Assembly (NCBI GenBank): GCA_016223145.1
Contig: JACRPN010000011.1
Coordinates: 62,001-126,000 of the forward strand
Length of the DNA: 64,000 bases
DNA from: Armatimonadota bacterium
Lineage (GTDB): Bacteria > Armatimonadota > Fimbriimonadia > Fimbriimonadales > Fimbriimonadaceae
Direction of reading: 5' to 3'
Both the position numbers and the translations under genes were made by a program. Under the pieces are notes generated by a model. The model was given only the letters and a program-made list of their open reading frames with translations, did not search any database and had not been told where the DNA came from. Each line of letters starts with the position of its first letter. The stretch's first letter is position 1. Positions 5,188 through 13,743 of the stretch are shown here, in pieces.

Positions 5188-6000
5188 GTGAAGCATCGAG
5201 TCGCCACGGCTCTCATCGGCATTCCGGTGGTGCTTGCCTGCGTCTTCCTCGCTTCTCCCTGGCCCCTCTTCGCCCTGACGGTCCTCGCAACGCTTTCCGG
5301 GTCTTGGGAATTGACCAAGTTCACACCCAAGGAACGCTATCCATTTCCGCTCTTCGGCCTGGTTCTGATGCTGCTTCTTGCCGGACTGTTGGCGCAGGAG
5401 TTGCCGGGGTGGACAGCTCAGAGCTTCTACCTTCGAAACCTTGGGCTCTTGGCGGCCGGGTTCTTTGGGGCGTTCTTGCTCACCACGGCGTATGCCACTC
5501 GCCTGGCGAAGGAAGCGGCCTCGCTCTGGGTGGCGGCGCCCTTGGCGAGCCTGGTGCTTCTCAAAGCTGATGCCGCCGCAACGGCGACTTCGGCGTGGAA
5601 CTGGACCGATCCGGCCCTCCTTGCCCTCGCGCCGCTTTGGGCGGGCGACACGGCCGCGATGCTCGTTGGAAAGAAATGGGGCAAGCACAAGCTCGCGCCA
5701 AAGATCTCCCCAGGAAAATCCGTCGAAGGCGCGATCGCCAATCTGGCCGCGTGCCTGGCCGTGGGGGTGCTTGCCGCCTCGCTCACCCAGCGCGGCCCGT
5801 TGCTGGGCCTCTCGTGCGGACTGGCGTGCGGCGTTTTGGGTCAGTTGGGCGACCTCTTCGAGAGCTATCTCAAGCGGTCCGCCGGGCTCAAAGATAGCGG
5901 CGCCATTCTTCCGGGACATGGCGGCGTGCTCGACCGAATTGACTCTTTGCTCGCCTCCGCTCCGGCGGTCGTGGCCGTGGTCCTGTTTTGGCCCGAGTAG
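5188..6000 (+). CDS. cdsA: phosphatidate cytidylyltransferase
   Basis: 270-aa integral membrane enzyme that makes CDP-diacylglycerol from phosphatidate and CTP, the branch point of phospholipid synthesis. Several hydrophobic segments fill the first 150 residues, and the C-terminal CDP-alcohol signature is present ([20 protein letters not shown], then GVLDRIDSL). Starts with GTG at 5188, 16 bases after the LuxR-type gene, so it may be in the same transcript. Length matches the family. Confidence 0.93.
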
Positions 6001-6026
6001 GAGGGCGCAGGGTAAGATCGGCCCGC

Positions 6027-7028
6027 ATGCCCGCGGTCGAAGTAAGCCACCTGCGCAAGGTCTACGTTTCGCACAAGAAGACGCCTGGGGTTCTAGGCGC
6101 CATCAAGGGGCTGGTCACCCGGGAGCGCACCGAAGTCGAGGCCGTCAAGGACATCTCCTTCTCAGTGGAGGCCGGGGAGTTTGTTGGCTTCCTGGGGCCG
6201 AACGGCGCCGGCAAGACGACAACGCTCAAGATGCTTACAGGCATCCTCTATCCCAGCTCGGGCTCGGCCACAGTGCTCGGCTACCGGCCGACGGACCGAA
6301 AGATCGAAATGCTCAAGCGGCTGACCCTGCTGATGGGCAACAAGATGCAGCTTTGGTGGGACCTGCCGGCATGGGACGGCTTTCTGGTGCTGAAAGAGAT
6401 CTATGAGGTGCCCGACGCCGCGTTCAAGTCCCGCGTCGAGCACCTGATCGAGATTCTCGATCTGAGCGAGAAGATTAACGTGCAAGTTCGCAAGCTTAGC
6501 CTTGGCGAGAGAATGAAATGCGAGCTGGTCGCAGCGCTGCTTCACGCCCCAGAAGTGGTGTTTCTCGATGAACCAACTTTGGGCCTCGACGTGGTCAGCC
6601 AAAAACGCGTGCGCGACTTCTTGAGGGAGCTGCATCGGCAGGATGGTTCCACGATTTTGCTCACGAGCCACTACATGCAGGACGTTGCCGAGCTCTGCCA
6701 CCGCGTGATCGTGATCGACCACGGGAGCCTCGTGTTCGACGGAACGCTCGACGCCCTCTCGCACCGATTCGGCAACGAGCGCCGGATTCGGCTCCACCTG
6801 GAGGGAGACGCAAGCCAGGAGATTCTCGAAAAGCTCGGCAAGGTGATCTCGAACGAAGAGGGCGAGGCCGTGCTGGAAGTTCCGGCCGATCGCGTTGCTA
6901 CAGTCACCGGCCGCGCGCTGAAGGAGCTTTCGGTTGTGGATTTGAAGATCGAGGAGGTGGATATCGAGGACGTGGTCCGCAGGCTCTTCACCTCAGTCGA
7001 AGAGCCCCTTGCCCAGGAATCTGGCTGA
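6027..7028 (+). CDS. ABC transporter ATP-binding protein (COG4586-like)
   Basis: 333-aa nucleotide-binding subunit with Walker A GPNGAGKTT, signature LSLGERMKCEL, Walker B VVFLDEPTLGLD and the H-loop TSHYM. The long insert before Walker A (KTPGVLGAIKGLV) and the C-terminal extension of about 90 residues are typical of the COG4586 group of ABC-2 type exporters. Its permease partners, normally next door, are absent here. ATG 6027 is chosen over an upstream in-frame ATG that would overlap cdsA; a TAAGAT hexamer ends eight bases before it, consistent with a leaderless message. Transported substrate unknown. Confidence 0.88.
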   Translation: MPAVEVSHLRKVYVSHKKTPGVLGAIKGLVTRERTEVEAVKDISFSVEAGEFVGFLGPNGAGKTTTLKMLTGILYPSSGSATVLGYRPTDRKIEMLKRLTLLMGNKMQLWWDLPAWDGFLVLKEIYEVPDAAFKSRVEHLIEILDLSEKINVQVRKLSLGERMKCELVAALLHAPEVVFLDEPTLGLDVVSQKRVRDFLRELHRQDGSTILLTSHYMQDVAELCHRVIVIDHGSLVFDGTLDALSHRFGNERRIRLHLEGDASQEILEKLGKVISNEEGEAVLEVPADRVATVTGRALKELSVVDLKIEEVDIEDVVRRLFTSVEEPLAQESG

Positions 7029-7051
7029 GGTTCGGCGATAGGCGCGCCGCA

Positions 7052-7067
7052 TGTTTCACGTGAAACA
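7052..7067. promoter_or_regulatory. parS: parS centromere-like site (perfect consensus)
   Basis: TGTTTCACGTGAAACA, a perfect 16-bp palindrome identical to the ParB/Spo0J parS consensus known from Bacillus and conserved across bacteria. It sits in the gap between the ABC gene and valS. An ATG inside it opens a frame encoding MFHVKH that continues into valS, but a ribosome site further down marks the true start. parS sites lie close to the replication origin in most chromosomes. Confidence 0.93.
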
Positions 7068-7140
7068 CGCAGCCCCCACTTTGGTGCGAGCGCCACCCCC
7101 AGGTACACTTTCCCCACTTTCGCGACAGGAAAGGGTACTC

Positions 7141-9750
7141 ATGGAACATTCAGGCGAGATGTCGACGCGCTACGACGCGTCATCGGTGGAAAGCAAGTGG
7201 TACGGTGAATGGGAGCGTGCAGGGCTCTTCTCGCCCGACCCAGACCCGGGCAAGCCTACCTACTGCATCACAATTCCGCCTCCCAACATCACGGGCTCGC
7301 TCCATATGGGGCACGCGCTCTGCTATCCCATCCAAGACTGCCTCGGGCGATTTCACAGGCTGGCCGGCAAATCGGTGCTCGTCCTGCCCGGCCAGGATCA
7401 CGCCGGTATCGCCACCCAAAGCGTGGTCTCCAAGCTGCTGCGAAAGGAAGGGACAAGCCCCTCGGCCATAGGTCGCGAGAAGTTCCTCGAGCGCGTATGG
7501 GAGTGGCGCAAAGAGAGCGGCGACACCATCTTGAACCAGCTTCGACTGCTCGGCTGCGGGTTCGACTGGCCGCGGCAGCGCTTCACGCTCGACGACGCTT
7601 ATGCGAAGGCTGTTCTGAAGGTTTTCGTGGATTGGTACGACCGTGGCATCATCTATCGCGGCAAGAGGGTGGTCAACTGGGACCCCGTGCTCGAAACGAG
7701 CGTCTCCGACATCGAAACAGAGCGAAGAACGGTGCGCGGCAAGCTTTATCACGTTCGCTACCCATTCGCCGATGGTTCCGGCTCGCTTGTCGTCGCCACA
7801 ACCCGCCCAGAGACGATGCTGGGCGACGTGGCCGTCGCCGTCAACGAAAAGGACCCCCGCTACTCAGGCATGATCGGCAAGAGCCTTGTCCTGCCGCTTA
7901 TGAATCGCGAGATTCCACTGATTGCCGACCCTTACCCGGACCCCGAGTTTGGGACCGGCGCGGTGAAGGTCACGCCCGCACACGATCCCAACGACTACGA
8001 GATGGGAGTCCGCCACGAGCTCGACATGCCGGTCATTTTGGACTCCAGAGCAAGGGTCACCGAACTTGGGGGTCCCTATGCAGGCTTGGACCGGGTTGAG
8101 GCGCGGAAGCGCGTGGTTCACGACCTCGAAGAGCATGGGTTCCTCGTGAAGGTGGAGGATTACGACATTCCGCTGCTGGTCTCGGAGCGGTCAGGCGAGC
8201 CCATAGAGCCGCTGCTGTCCGAGCAGTGGTTTGTCGCTCAGAAGCAGCTGGCCGGGCCCGGAATCGAGGCCGTAAAGTCAGGAAAGGTGCGGTTCTATCC
8301 TGAGCGCTACGAGAAGGTGTACCTCGACTGGATGGAGAACATCCGGGATTGGTGCATCAGCCGCCAGCTTTGGTGGGGCCACCGAATTCCTGTCTACTAC
8401 ATGGAAGACGGTTCCGCCGTTGCCGCCCTGAGCAAGGAAGAGGCCGAGGCCAAGTCTGGGAAGAAGGTGGTCCGCCAGGACGAAGATGTGCTCGACACCT
8501 GGTTCTCCAGCGGGCTTTGGCCGTTCGCGACCCTCGGCTGGCCCGAAAACACCGAGGACCTCTCCCGGTACTACCCAACTTCTGCGCTGATCACCGATCG
8601 AAACATCATCTACCTGTGGGTTGCCAGGATGATCATGATGGGGATGGACTTCCTCGGCGAGGCGCCGTTCCACGAGGTCTTCATCTACGCCACCGTCCTA
8701 ACTGAATCCGGTCAGCGCATGAGCAAGAGCCTCGGCACAGGCAAGGACCCCACCGAGCTCATCGAGAAGCATGGCGCCGATGCTTTGCGATTCGCGCTCC
8801 TGTGCCAAACGGGTGAGAATCAGGACTTGCGGTTTGGCGATCGCAGGGTCGAAGACGCGCGCAACTTCTGCAACAAGCTCTGGAACGCGACGCGCTTCGT
8901 TCTGATGAACATCGTGGAGCCGCCCGTTGAGCCCAACGCGCTCCAAGAGGTCGATCAGTGGCTGCTCAGCCGGCTCTACAGCCTGGAGAAGTCTGTGCGA
9001 GACGCCTATTCCCAATACCGCTTTCAGGACGCTGCCTGGAGCCTCTACGGCTTTTTCTGGAGCGAGCTCTGCGACTGGTACATCGAGATATGCAAGTCGC
9101 GTCTGCTGGCTGGGGAGACCGCGCCAAAATGGGTGCTCCTCACCGCGATCGAGGCCGTGCTGAAGATGCTCCACCCGATCATGCCGCACATCACCGAGGC
9201 GCTGTACCAGCACCTGCCTCTTGCGCAGCGCGACCCGTTCCTGATGGGATCTTCCTGGCCGTCGCTGCCGCAACATTTCCATCAGCCCGGTGTCGAGGCC
9301 AAGTTGGAACAAACCTTCGCCGCGGTTCGCGCGCTCCGCGCTCTAAGGCATGAGGCCGGCTTGACGCCGATGAAAGCGATTCCGCGAGCCTACATCGATC
9401 GGGAATGGCCCGGCGGCCGAGAAATCCTGCTAAGCCAGGCTTGGCTCGAGGATCTGGTCGTGGGCGAGCCCGAATCGGGCGTTCGCTGCCTTTCGACCTC
9501 TTGCGAGGGCTTCCAGCTATCGGTTCCCGTTGAAGGGCTTGATCTGGACAAGGAGTGCGCCAGGCTCCAGCAGGAACTCGCGAAGGCTGAAGGTGAAAGA
9601 GCCCGCATCGAGGCTCAGTTATCGAATCCGAGCTTCGTCGAGAGGGCCAAGCCAGAGGTTGTGGAACAAGCCAGGCAGCGACTCGCGAGCCTGAACACAA
9701 CCATTGAGCAGCTTGCCGAACGCCGCCGGGTATTTGGGTGTTCGGATTAG
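7141..9750 (+). CDS. valS: valyl-tRNA synthetase
   Basis: 869-aa class I aminoacyl-tRNA synthetase charging tRNA-Val. The HIGH-type motif (PPNITGSLHMGHAL) is near the N-terminus, the KMSKS-type motif appears as RMSKSLG, the editing domain lies between, and the C-terminus is a coiled-coil tRNA-binding arm (LDKECARLQQELAKAEGERA). ATG 7141 is preceded by AGGAAAGG at good spacing; the frame is open 90 bases further up to an ATG within parS, which is rejected. Normal length. No T-box leader is visible. Confidence 0.97.
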   Translation: MEHSGEMSTRYDASSVESKWYGEWERAGLFSPDPDPGKPTYCITIPPPNITGSLHMGHALCYPIQDCLGRFHRLAGKSVLVLPGQDHAGIATQSVVSKLLRKEGTSPSAIGREKFLERVWEWRKESGDTILNQLRLLGCGFDWPRQRFTLDDAYAKAVLKVFVDWYDRGIIYRGKRVVNWDPVLETSVSDIETERRTVRGKLYHVRYPFADGSGSLVVATTRPETMLGDVAVAVNEKDPRYSGMIGKSLVLPLMNREIPLIADPYPDPEFGTGAVKVTPAHDPNDYEMGVRHELDMPVILDSRARVTELGGPYAGLDRVEARKRVVHDLEEHGFLVKVEDYDIPLLVSERSGEPIEPLLSEQWFVAQKQLAGPGIEAVKSGKVRFYPERYEKVYLDWMENIRDWCISRQLWWGHRIPVYYMEDGSAVAALSKEEAEAKSGKKVVRQDEDVLDTWFSSGLWPFATLGWPENTEDLSRYYPTSALITDRNIIYLWVARMIMMGMDFLGEAPFHEVFIYATVLTESGQRMSKSLGTGKDPTELIEKHGADALRFALLCQTGENQDLRFGDRRVEDARNFCNKLWNATRFVLMNIVEPPVEPNALQEVDQWLLSRLYSLEKSVRDAYSQYRFQDAAWSLYGFFWSELCDWYIEICKSRLLAGETAPKWVLLTAIEAVLKMLHPIMPHITEALYQHLPLAQRDPFLMGSSWPSLPQHFHQPGVEAKLEQTFAAVRALRALRHEAGLTPMKAIPRAYIDREWPGGREILLSQAWLEDLVVGEPESGVRCLSTSCEGFQLSVPVEGLDLDKECARLQQELAKAEGERARIEAQLSNPSFVERAKPEVVEQARQRLASLNTTIEQLAERRRVFGCSD

Positions 9751-9759
9751 CGCCGCCCC

Positions 9760-10632
9760 TTAGCGAACGCGCACGAACGCGCCGTTTCGCAACTCGAACC
9801 GAATGTCCCCCTCCTGGTCGGTTCGGACGGCCGTTGCGCCGGCTGAGGTGACGCGCGCCAGCGCCTCCTTTGAAGGATGCCCATAGCTGTTATGGCGGCC
9901 ACAAGAAAAGACCACGGTGTTTGGCTCGACGGCCCGGAGCCAGGCCTCCGAAGTGGAAGTTCGGCTTCCGTGATGGCCCGCTTTCAGCACCTGCGCGCGC
10001 CAATTGCGGCGCCCCGAGAGCACCGCTTCGGCTATCGCGTCGGCATCTCCCGAGAAGTCGGCAGCGGCGGTTCCGCCCTCCACCCGCAGGAACATCGACC
10101 CGAAGTTGTCCGGATCGCCCTGCGCGAATCGGACGGAATCCACCTCGATGCGGAACGACCCGAACTCGATGCGAGATCCCGGCGAGAGCCAGGCCACGCG
10201 GGATTCGTCAATCCGTGCCTCGCGAAGCCAATAGCCCAGGTCGGAACTCGATGCAAAGTGGGCCATTGCTCCCACCTTTCGAACCGGAATGTGCCTCGCG
10301 ATTCCCCGCAAGCCTCCCACGTGGTCGGCGTCGGGATGTGACAGAAGGACCAGGTCGACCGCCGTGACGCCCATGCGCCTAAGGTCCCTGATGATCCCTT
10401 GCGCCGCCGTATCGCGATCAGGAGCGGCCGGGCCGGCGTCGATGAGCACGGTCACCCCCGCGTGTCGAAACACGGCGCAATCCCCTTGTCCCACGTCCAG
10501 AAACCAGAGCTCGGTGGGTTGGCCCGAAGCCGTCAGGGTCCCCGTAAGGCTCCCCGCCGCAAGAGAGCCCGCGGCGATGGCGGCGACCTTAAGCCGGGCG
10601 CGCAATCGGCCTCCACACCAGAATCGCCCCAA
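9760..10632 (-). CDS. comEC: ComEC C-terminal metallo-hydrolase part
   Basis: About 280 residues equal to the C-terminal metallo-beta-lactamase domain of ComEC, the DNA-uptake channel: one hydrophobic segment (LKVAAIAAGSLAAGSL) then LWFLDVGQGDCAVF, the metal-binding LSHPDADHVGG, and a final GHHGSRTS block. The frame opens with TTG at 10632, has no convincing ribosome site, and overlaps the N-terminal ComEC frame by 44 bases. The two products add up to the usual ~740-residue ComEC. Either a natural two-gene version, a frameshift in the strain, or a sequencing error. This domain is thought to degrade the non-transported strand in some species. Confidence 0.85.
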   Translation of the reverse strand: MGRFWCGGRLRARLKVAAIAAGSLAAGSLTGTLTASGQPTELWFLDVGQGDCAVFRHAGVTVLIDAGPAAPDRDTAAQGIIRDLRRMGVTAVDLVLLSHPDADHVGGLRGIARHIPVRKVGAMAHFASSSDLGYWLREARIDESRVAWLSPGSRIEFGSFRIEVDSVRFAQGDPDNFGSMFLRVEGGTAAADFSGDADAIAEAVLSGRRNWRAQVLKAGHHGSRTSTSEAWLRAVEPNTVVFSCGRHNSYGHPSKEALARVTSAGATAVRTDQEGDIRFELRNGAFVRVR

Positions 10633-11974
10633 GGTAAACCAACCCCCAGAAGAGCCCCGGAAGCTCCGGAACCATAACGCTGCTCCAGGTCTGGCTTCCC
10701 AGGGTTTCCGTAACCGCCAAGACCCACAGAGCCAGAGGCTCGACGACGACGTGCATGAGGCCCTGCGAAAGAGCCTCTGAGATTGGGAAGACGGCCCAAG
10801 CCACCAGGGCGCAGACGATCAGCGGGCCGATCGTGCCTGCTACGAGAAGGTTGGCCACTACCGCCACAATCGAAAAGGTCCCAAAGGCCCGGGCCAGAAG
10901 GGGCGCCGTCGCCAACGTGGCGACGGCGCTGGCCCGAACGCTGGAACTCACTTGTGCCTTGAGCAGAGCCTTCGGCCCCCTGCCGGAAGAGTGCGCGCCA
11001 CGCGCAAACATCCAAAGGGCTAGAACCGCCACGAACGAAAGCTGGAAGCTGAGCTCGAAGACCTCAAGTGGCCTCCACAGCAGAAACGCCGCCGCCGCAA
11101 GCCCGACTGCCGACGGGAAATCGCCCTCACGCTCGAACCAGGGGGCAGACATGATGGCGGCCGCCATCAGCACGGACCTGACGATGGGCGGGTCGAGGCC
11201 CGTGGCACAAGCGTAGAAGGCGAGAAGAAGATAAAGCACCACAAGTTGGCTGGACCGTGGCATTGGCGTGAGGCCAAGCCCAAACTGCAGGCTGAACGCC
11301 AGGATGAGCACATGCAAACCGGAGGTGGAGACGATGTGCACGATTCCCGTCCGCTTGAGGTTGGCCATGTCTCCGTCCGAGATTCCCCCACGGACATTGA
11401 AGCAGAGGGCTTGAACCAGTGTAGATGTTCGGTCACCTAGCGTACTATTGCACATGGTGATGAACGACTCGCGCCACTGGGCAGCCCATCGAAAGACCGA
11501 TGGGCCTTCCGCCTTCACACGTATGTCTGCGGCCTTTGCCTTGATCACTCCAAGAATGCCGCGTCGGCCCATAGACACATTGAACGTCGGATCGACATTC
11601 CGCACCTCGGCAGCCACCTCGAGCACGTCGCCAATCGAAAGCCTAGGGAACCCTTCGCATTCCAGCAAATACTGGTTGACGCCTGACCTCACTTCACATC
11701 GAAACCCTCTCTGCTCTATGGTCGGCATGCCCACCACCGTCGCTTCACCGTGAAACCAGCCTGAGCCCGCTGATGGGCCAGCAACGCCTTTCGGCGCCAG
11801 AATGACGCCAGTAATAAGACATACTAGCAAAATCGTCTTGCAGGCTAACGGCCGGCACACGACCCCGAGAACGGCAACCAGAATGAGCCACACAGGTTCC
11901 GTGATGGCCACGATGCCGAGCGCCAGGCCGATGGCGGCCAGCAACAGCGGCCTAAGTTCAAGCTCCCTCCTCAT
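10589..11974 (-). CDS. comEC: ComEC N-terminal membrane channel part
   Basis: 461-aa multi-pass inner-membrane protein with the DUF4131-like N-terminus and the Competence domain, whose signature (GIVHIVSTSGLHVLILAFSL) is clear. This part forms the channel through which single-stranded DNA enters during transformation. The frame stops at 10589 in the middle of what would normally be the linker to the hydrolase domain, which continues in another frame. The start overlaps the end of the DciA gene by 17 bases. No comEA or pilus genes are in the window. Confidence 0.87.
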   Translation of the reverse strand: MRRELELRPLLLAAIGLALGIVAITEPVWLILVAVLGVVCRPLACKTILLVCLITGVILAPKGVAGPSAGSGWFHGEATVVGMPTIEQRGFRCEVRSGVNQYLLECEGFPRLSIGDVLEVAAEVRNVDPTFNVSMGRRGILGVIKAKAADIRVKAEGPSVFRWAAQWRESFITMCNSTLGDRTSTLVQALCFNVRGGISDGDMANLKRTGIVHIVSTSGLHVLILAFSLQFGLGLTPMPRSSQLVVLYLLLAFYACATGLDPPIVRSVLMAAAIMSAPWFEREGDFPSAVGLAAAAFLLWRPLEVFELSFQLSFVAVLALWMFARGAHSSGRGPKALLKAQVSSSVRASAVATLATAPLLARAFGTFSIVAVVANLLVAGTIGPLIVCALVAWAVFPISEALSQGLMHVVVEPLALWVLAVTETLGSQTWSSVMVPELPGLFWGLVYLGAILVWRPIARPA

Positions 11975-12359
11975 CGCTGCCTTCCCCGAACCACTTCTGC
12001 CTGATTTCTTCTATCGTCTGCGTGACTCCTCTTCGTGTTCGCTGCGGAGGCGGAGGAGGTGGCGGGCTGGGAAGCGCCTTGTCGGTGAAGCGCAAGTCCT
12101 TGAACAAGCCCGGTTCGCCGCTAAACACGGCTAGCTTATCTAGTATTTGTTCCTTCCTGAGGGAGAGTTCTAGCAGCCAGCTCGATCCTTGTACGCAGAC
12201 GTGGATCGTTCCCTGCTCGTAGCGCTCCGGCCAAGACTTCGTCGCCAAGGTCTCGCCAACCACCTCATTCCAACGCCTCAGCGTCTTGTTTGCGCGCGCC
12301 TGACGCAAAACCTCCCTCTGAGGGAGTGCCGACTTTAGGATGGAGTCGAGAGGACGCAT
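11958..12359 (-). CDS. dciA: DciA-like protein (DUF721)
   Basis: 133-aa protein of the DUF721 family. Characterised members (DciA) bind the replicative helicase DnaB and assist its loading in bacteria lacking DnaC or DnaI. Seen here: the N-terminal domain (RRWNEVVGETLATKSWPERY, then TIHVCVQGSSWLLELSLRKEQIL), a polyproline linker near residues 97-104, and a short charged tail. It lies 15 bases after recF, the ancestral order recF-dciA found next to dnaA-dnaN in many origins, and overlaps comEC. Confidence 0.85.
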   Translation of the reverse strand: MRPLDSILKSALPQREVLRQARANKTLRRWNEVVGETLATKSWPERYEQGTIHVCVQGSSWLLELSLRKEQILDKLAVFSGEPGLFKDLRFTDKALPSPPPPPPPQRTRRGVTQTIEEIRQKWFGEGSDEEGA

Positions 12360-12374
12360 GGCAATGGTGATCCG

Positions 12375-13517
12375 CTATGCCTCGCTGATTCGGCCCGAAG
12401 TGACGCGAAACACCTTGGACCTTGCCAGCAGCGACGCGCCGGCGGATTCGGGTTCGGTACAGGTTAGCACGGCTTGTCCCGCATGATCCAGTACCCACTG
12501 CGTCAAGTTTTGTCGGCGGCGTTCATCCAGGTCGGAGAGCATGTCATCCAGGAGCAGGAGCGGGACTCGGCCCTGCTGGCGGGCGAGCAGGAGCGTCGCG
12601 AGCTTGAGCGAAATCACCGCCGTGCGCTGCTGGCCCTGGCTCCCAAACAGCCGGGCGTCCCTGTCGTCGACCTCGATCTGGAGGTCGTCACGGTGTGGGC
12701 CCATGGTGGTCGTTCCGCGCATGATGTCCTCCACGCGTCCCTGCACAAACGCCCTGAAGAGGCCCTCTGCCGTGTCGTGGGCGTCTTTCGGGGCGAAACG
12801 CAGCCCGAGAGCCTCACCACCCCCCAGAGTGCCGTGTATGGCCCGCCCGAGAGGGTCCAGCTCCTCGAGGAACTCGCCCCTCATCCGGCGTATCTCGGCG
12901 CCGCCTTGTGCCATGTGCGTCTCCCACGTCTCGAACTGAGCCGAGTCCACCATGGTCTCCCGAGCCGCCTTCAAAAGTGCGTTTCGATGCTCCAGCGCCT
13001 TCTTGTAGAGGCTCAACGCCCTGAGGTAGCTGGGGTAGGTCTGTGAGAGCTCCAGGTCCAAGAACAACCTGCGCCCGGAGGGTTCTCCTTGAGCCAGAGC
13101 CAAATCGAAGCTTGAGACGCTTACGCAGGGCAGCCGCCCCAGCACATCTGAAGCTCGCGGCAGCTTCAGACCGTTCAGATAAGCCGATTTGCGGACCGAC
13201 TCCTCGATTCGGATCTCGATCTCCGTGGGCTGCGAGGCCAGAGAGCCCTTGACGGATGCGGATGTCTCGCCGATGGCAATGGCCTCCCGGTCCCGAACCC
13301 CCCGCAGAAGCCGCGCCGTGCCCAAGAGGTAGAGCGCCTCCAGGAGGTTCGTCTTCCCTTGGGCGTTCGGACCCGAGACGACGTTGAACCCTTGAGATAG
13401 GCTGACCGATTCACTCAGGTAGTTTCGAAAGTGCCTCAGTGAGAGCTGGGCAACACCGCACAAAGCCGAATCGGCCGGCTTGTCCCCACCGGAGTTCTCT
13501 AGGTCAAGCTCATGCAT
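12375..13517 (-). CDS. recF: RecF DNA repair ATPase
   Basis: 380-aa SMC-like ATPase that helps load RecA at gaps. Walker A GPNAQGKTNLLEALY and the signature/Walker B block near the C-terminus (LLLLDDMLSDLDERRRQNL) are intact. About 20 extra N-terminal residues precede the conserved LSLRHFRNY strand, so a start slightly downstream is possible. First gene of the minus-strand run recF-dciA-comEC. dnaN, its normal upstream neighbour, is missing; instead a 226-bp non-coding stretch with DnaA-box-like sequences precedes it. Confidence 0.95.
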   Translation of the reverse strand: MHELDLENSGGDKPADSALCGVAQLSLRHFRNYLSESVSLSQGFNVVSGPNAQGKTNLLEALYLLGTARLLRGVRDREAIAIGETSASVKGSLASQPTEIEIRIEESVRKSAYLNGLKLPRASDVLGRLPCVSVSSFDLALAQGEPSGRRLFLDLELSQTYPSYLRALSLYKKALEHRNALLKAARETMVDSAQFETWETHMAQGGAEIRRMRGEFLEELDPLGRAIHGTLGGGEALGLRFAPKDAHDTAEGLFRAFVQGRVEDIMRGTTTMGPHRDDLQIEVDDRDARLFGSQGQQRTAVISLKLATLLLARQQGRVPLLLLDDMLSDLDERRRQNLTQWVLDHAGQAVLTCTEPESAGASLLARSKVFRVTSGRISEA

Positions 13518-13743
13518 GAAAATCTACTCTTACTAATACGGCGAACCAGAATGTGGAAAACTCACTTCCTTCAGGCTCGCGTTCGCCGCGAAAAGGCCGC
13601 AATTGAACTTGAGAGGCCACAGCACCGTCGGTGGTGCATTGTGGAAAATGCCGTGGAAAATGTGCGATTCGTACAAGTTTTCGAAAACCGATAGTTAACA
13701 CAGAAACCGTCCAAAACGTAATCCACCTTCTGTCCACACACGC
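13518..13743. other. candidate oriC / DnaA-box region
   Basis: Non-coding and visibly AT-rich compared with its flanks. Minus-strand TTTTCCACA, an exact match to the DnaA-box consensus TTWTNCACA, occurs at 13552-13560 and 13640-13648. A one-mismatch copy is at 13652-13660, and weaker plus-strand boxes are at 13719-13727 (TAATCCACC) and 13730-13738 (CTGTCCACA). Between them lies AT-rich sequence around 13660-13715 that could unwind. It directly precedes recF-dciA, and a perfect parS is 6.5 kb away. It could be oriC, or a DnaA-controlled promoter. dnaA itself is not in the window. Confidence 0.55.

Follow-up and report, generated by a model that had tools for sequence, protein, structure and literature searches.

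The window analyzed here, a stretch of 64,000 nucleotides from an Armatimonadota genome, carries a perfect 16-bp palindrome that lies between the gene of an ABC transporter ATPase and valS, within a conserved gene block. The best named relatives of its ValS are UBA2362 (filed as Chthonomonas sp., 64%) and Fimbriimonadales/Fimbriimonadia bins, and the host is a Fimbriimonadales-like Armatimonadota. The features of this block are the following.

5188..6000, + strand: upstream gene of the conserved block, taken from its position as the permease partner of the adjoining ABC ATPase (sub-cutoff NCBIfam match to PRK11624 only)
5988..7028, + strand: ABC transporter ATPase, conserved neighbour just upstream of parS
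7051..7140, + strand: apparently spurious 30-codon N-terminal extension of valS (MFHVKH...), opened by an ATG that overlaps parS
7052..7067, no strand: parS, perfect palindrome TGTTTCACGTGAAACA, exact consensus match
7141..9750, + strand: valS, valine-tRNA ligase, from its probable true start (PRK05729, 1085 bits; TIGR00422, 962 bits)
11958..12359, - strand: dciA (DUF721), replicative helicase loader family (PF05258, 5.6e-15)
12375..13517, - strand: recF (TIGR00611, 307.6 bits against a cutoff of 172)

The parS site and the start of valS

The initial annotation had read the 16-mer at 7052-7067 as the ParB-binding consensus base for base, and comparison with the 16-bp consensus TGTTNCACGTGAAACA gave 0 mismatches. 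The site is the sole match at ≤3 mismatches in the window, where shuffled sequences average 0.17 matches, and the sole match at ≤2 mismatches in the whole 3.87-Mb genome. The genome-wide scan that the annotation had proposed therefore returned this locus but no cluster of sites. Neither of the two findings it had named as contrary to its reading was seen: no parS matches cluster elsewhere, and the genome encodes one ParB.

The annotation had also warned that a start codon inside parS reads into valS and could mislead annotation of that gene, and this warning is well founded. The ATG at 7051 opens an 899-residue frame running into valS, with an N-terminal extension beginning MFHVKHAAPTL.... The frame from the ATG at 7141, 30 codons downstream, encodes 869 residues, is preceded by AGGAAAGG, and is aligned by ValS family models from residue 2-9 of the 869-residue form. 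Among relatives, the spacing between parS and the start of valS falls in all three frames, so the extension is not conserved coding sequence. The true start is thus most likely ATG 7141, and start codons that occur within parS call for practical caution in gene annotation. A simple promoter scan before valS found nothing.

Conservation of the site across relatives

A parS with ≤1 mismatch was found in 62 of the 113 genomes of the order, mostly as one to three sites close together. Among 20 loci that were read, 15 have the site within ~1.1 kb of valS, mostly inside a recA-ABC-valS-comEC-dciA-recF block. Two of the remaining five place it beside recF, two from another family place it beside the same ABC genes, and one (G068) has it elsewhere. 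The usual position is 40-140 bp before valS; in several relatives the site lies 0.4-1.1 kb from valS, before or after other genes, and some blocks hold two or three sites. In G035 parS still precedes valS, though most of the neighbourhood differs. Where both positions are known, recF lies ≤~12 kb from parS.

Thirty genomes of the same family lack a ≤1-mismatch site, and most of those with a valS upstream region hold a degenerate copy there, often palindromic. This set is biased in that the best match per region was chosen; only ~3% of random 216-bp pieces give ≤4 mismatches, with true sites left out of neither group. Several variants are doubly changed and fully palindromic (TGTTCCACGTGGAACA, CGTTTCACGTGAAACG and TGTTTCGCGCGAAACA). 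Changes in both halves that leave the palindrome intact are what one would predict if a symmetric dimer reads the site. Two observations count against the explanation that we favor below, namely that in some g6 relatives just one half-site is still good and that G068, a small-genome relative of 1.5 Mb, has its parS away from the block.

In G068 the perfect site stands at 10001-10016 of locus L148, just after priA. Three DnaA-box-like 9-mers occur at 7950-8150, 1.9 kb from parS; they were not counted as an origin because they lie within the priA coding sequence. In family f3 (G093-G110), none of the 18 genomes has parS at ≤1 mismatch, and G107 and G108 carry two ParB genes each; this family may use a different ParB site.

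These data bear on two other readings of the palindrome. Base composition predicts ~0.0002 exact copies per genome, and the position of the 16-mer is conserved across the family; a chance match, for which we found no supporting point, is already refuted by this conservation, and its probability is close to nil. Alternatively, ParB or a ParB-like regulator might bind the palindrome to control transcription of valS or the ABC genes locally, as an operator with little role in segregation. Its usual place before valS fits such a role, as does the known effect of ParB on promoters near parS (PMC7022226), but the more distant sites of several relatives, the blocks with two or three sites, and the G068 site away from valS do not. 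An exact consensus that occurs at one locus per genome and coincides with the skew switch described below likewise argues against an operator, which we regard as improbable. Judged from its sequence context, 7052-7067 is instead a genuine, ordinary parS and the only one of its genome: it matches the consensus exactly, there is one site per genome alongside a canonical ParB, its position holds across the family, and its variants keep the palindrome. As an element, parS is of a known kind; the location of oriC is the new part.

A candidate origin upstream of recF

DnaA is encoded on contig C5 of the window genome. GC skew, which the initial annotation had suggested checking, was too weak in the window and across its 352-kb contig to locate an origin; the informative part came from three near-complete relatives, where skew switches at or near the orthologous block. 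With dnaA and parB far away and the window's own skew uninformative, the origin could not be inferred here by general rules. The distance from dnaA to parS is 0.88 Mb in G035, 1.92 Mb in Fimbriimonas ginsengisoli (G015), 0.28 Mb in G085, and 0.29 Mb in G054; in contiguous relatives parB lies still farther from parS than dnaA or on the other arm.

GC skew was sampled as 20-21 pieces of 20 kb per genome. In the near-complete relatives G035, G054, and G085 negative skew gives way to positive skew at or near the parS-recF block, with permutation p values for the skew fit of ~0.001 or less, and the G035 and G054 fits peak at the block. The cumulative skew minimum falls at ~1.300 Mb in G054, which is the recF upstream spacer, and within an unsampled gap next to that spacer in G035. 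In G085, where parS lies at 2.628, recF at 2.633, dnaA at 2.912, and parB at 1.500 Mb, the skew moves from about -0.25 to +0.25 between 2.638 and 2.70 Mb; the switch lies 4-66 kb past the recF spacer, a co-location only to ~2% of the chromosome. Skew on contig C1 of G085 amounts to ~0.25 per arm, and none of the other relatives sampled comes close to this strength. For F. ginsengisoli the best fit lies near the parS locus and is not significant (p ~0.08-0.13), which agrees with the skew described as 'jagged' in this species (PMC4072686).

The spacer between recF and an RDD-family gene has the following features in the window.

13518..13743, no strand: candidate oriC, AT-rich spacer (48% GC against 62%)
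13529..13538, + strand: CTTACTAATA, AT-rich, candidate unwinding element 13 bp from the first box
13552..13560, - strand: TTTTCCACA, DnaA-box-like
13640..13648, - strand: TTTTCCACA, DnaA-box-like
13652..13660, - strand: TTTTCCACG, one mismatch from the box, read from the sequence

The canonical DnaA box TTATCCACA forms no cluster on the window contig, and the form TTTTCCACA, listed for Cyanobacteria (PMC10225481), was therefore examined. Both of its copies in the window fall in this spacer. The degenerate form TGTGGAWAA occurs 28 times in the genome, and only the two occurrences in the spacer lie <1 kb apart; a pair like this would arise by chance within 10 kb of parS with a probability of ~0.00015. 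TTWTNCACA was counted in 16 orthologous recF-RDD spacers and in the rest of the same loci: there are 14 copies in 4.4 kb of spacer (3.17/kb) and 8 in the other 359 kb (0.022/kb), a ~140-fold enrichment. G+C in these spacers is 5-15 points below that of the locus (9-15 in most, 5 in one), and most have a TTATTA-like stretch, in CTTACTA or TTATTA form, ~13 bp from a box. The spacer of the window thus combines a small box cluster (three boxes within 226 bp, two of them exact and one near) with low G+C and a CTTACTA/TTATTA stretch near a box, as expected of an unwinding element. The combined pattern CTTAYTA-N-GTGGAWAA has one match in the genome, at the candidate oriC, and is not sensitive, being found in 10 of 113 genomes.

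DnaA-trios of the B. subtilis type, in which 5'-TAG/TAA-3' repeats adjoin a box and share the strand of TGTGGATAA, were also considered. The trinucleotide repeats here, at a fixed spacing and 13-14 bp from the box, are on the wrong strand, and membership is not claimed. In G002, from another family of the order, a DnaA-ATPase-like protein (L152:3384-4367; PF00308, 9e-6) is encoded 6 kb from parS, and TTTTCCACA stands just before its gene.

We propose, from these sequence features, that the recF-RDD spacer at 13518-13743 is oriC, ~6.5 kb from parS. The recF promoter lies in the spacer too, and the boxes could therefore serve in part in recF regulation. The initial annotation's inference that parS places the window in the origin region gains support from the skew flips of the orthologous block in the three relatives and from this AT-rich spacer with its DnaA boxes.

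Replication might instead begin at dnaA or dnaN, with a genuine parS merely inside a wide origin domain. That would follow the usual bacterial rule, and Hu 2014 (PMC4072686) predicted the F. ginsengisoli origin at 5.13 Mb, between dnaN and dnaA. The distance between dnaA and parS is no more than ~11% of the chromosome in G054 and G085, and in G054 the skew score at dnaA, 0.29 Mb off, is close to that at recF. The skew of G085, however, is strongly positive on both sides of dnaA (+0.25 at 2.85 Mb, +0.29 at the contig start), the distant dnaA of G035 gives a negative fit, and no TTATCCACA occurs at ≤1 mismatch in the 20 kb around dnaA of the window genome. We give an origin at dnaA or dnaN only a slim chance. 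Under the proposed spacer origin, that of F. ginsengisoli would fall near 1.93 Mb, at recF and close to the parS site near 1.922 Mb, rather than at the published position.

In many phyla recF and dciA belong to the ancestral origin cluster, dnaA-dnaN-recF, so that here dnaA and dnaN probably left the origin and recF-dciA stayed. The spot next to recF is a likely origin previously unrecognized in this lineage because the usual marker, dnaA, lies elsewhere. With it, a class in which the one complete genome of a cultured member came without a convincing origin gains an oriC that can be tested at the level of single bases. The case also indicates that dnaA and parB can move away from an origin at which parS, recF, and dciA remain, and that a conserved parS can reveal the origin when neither dnaA proximity nor GC skew does so.

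ParB, ParA, and comparison with known systems

The single ParB of the genome, encoded on contig C14 away from the parS contig, is canonical and full-length (PF02195, 111.6 bits), with a ParB_N domain carrying a GERRYR motif, an HTH domain, and a dimerization domain. Its closest solved relatives are Thermus and Bacillus Spo0J, and the alignment covers GERRYR, the CTP-binding motif. With a relative's ParA as query, no Soj-type ParA was found at 1e-5 in the window genome (97% complete) or in two relatives of its genus, G070 and G071, nor was one found in G079, G072, G054, or G020. The PF13614 matches look like FlhG, Mrp-like, and Ffh proteins. By this search, the window genome appears to have no complete ParABS set of the kind that includes a Soj-type ParA.

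ParB was seen and Soj-type ParA not found in G000, G070, G071, G079, G072, G054, and G020 (L190, L199, L201, L196, L197, L191, and L200, respectively). Seven other genomes of the comparison have a Soj-type ParA, and in relatives parA sits directly before parB. From these searches, the genus of the window appears to be without a Soj-type ParA, and part of the family seems to have lost the protein. A family with variable ParA is useful for asking what ParA contributes to ParB-parS.

As established for ParB in general, the protein is loaded at parS in the form of a CTP clamp, then slides and brings in SMC. In the mechanism that we propose, a ParB dimer would recognize the parS palindrome, close as a CTP clamp, and slide onto neighbouring DNA to form a partition complex, which would recruit SMC so that newly replicated origins are organized and separated. 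Replication would start 6.5 kb from parS in the recF-RDD spacer, where DnaA would bind the TTTTCCACA boxes and melt the adjoining AT-rich stretch. Segregation would probably be driven by ParB-parS-SMC without ParA, which we propose because no Soj-type ParA was found in the genome or the two relatives of the genus. Taken together, a single chromosomal parS, an origin in the nearby spacer, and segregation probably free of ParA form a very probable reading of the locus. It is reasonably probable that this extends further, the origin of Fimbriimonadales-like Armatimonadota being the recF-dciA upstream spacer, tied family-wide to parS and valS while dnaA, dnaN, and parAB wander, and part of the family, without ParA, segregating on one parS and ParB (with SMC) alone.

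Like other bacterial oriC regions, the candidate is an AT-rich spacer with DnaA-box-like 9-mers, and like E. coli oriC it is detached from dnaA. The TTATTA-type stretch ~13 bp from a box resembles the CTTATTAG-13 bp-TGTGGATAA spacing of E. coli, a sequence confirmed in 5,365 genomes. Unlike these origins, the candidate adjoins recF-dciA and has only two exact boxes, and its trinucleotide repeats are of opposite polarity to the DnaA-trios of B. subtilis and T. maritima. With the chromosomal ParB-parS system typified by Spo0J-parS of Bacillus subtilis (PMC7022226) the parS system of the window genome shares the 16-bp consensus, a canonical ParB, and a position near the inferred origin; it differs in having one site, a parB far from parS and the origin, and no ParA found in the genus. 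Streptococcus pneumoniae, which keeps ParB and parS in the absence of ParA, is a known precedent (PMC7022226), but it has four parS sites where the window genome has one and belongs to an unrelated phylum, and in the present case ParA has been lost by some members of a single family and not by others.
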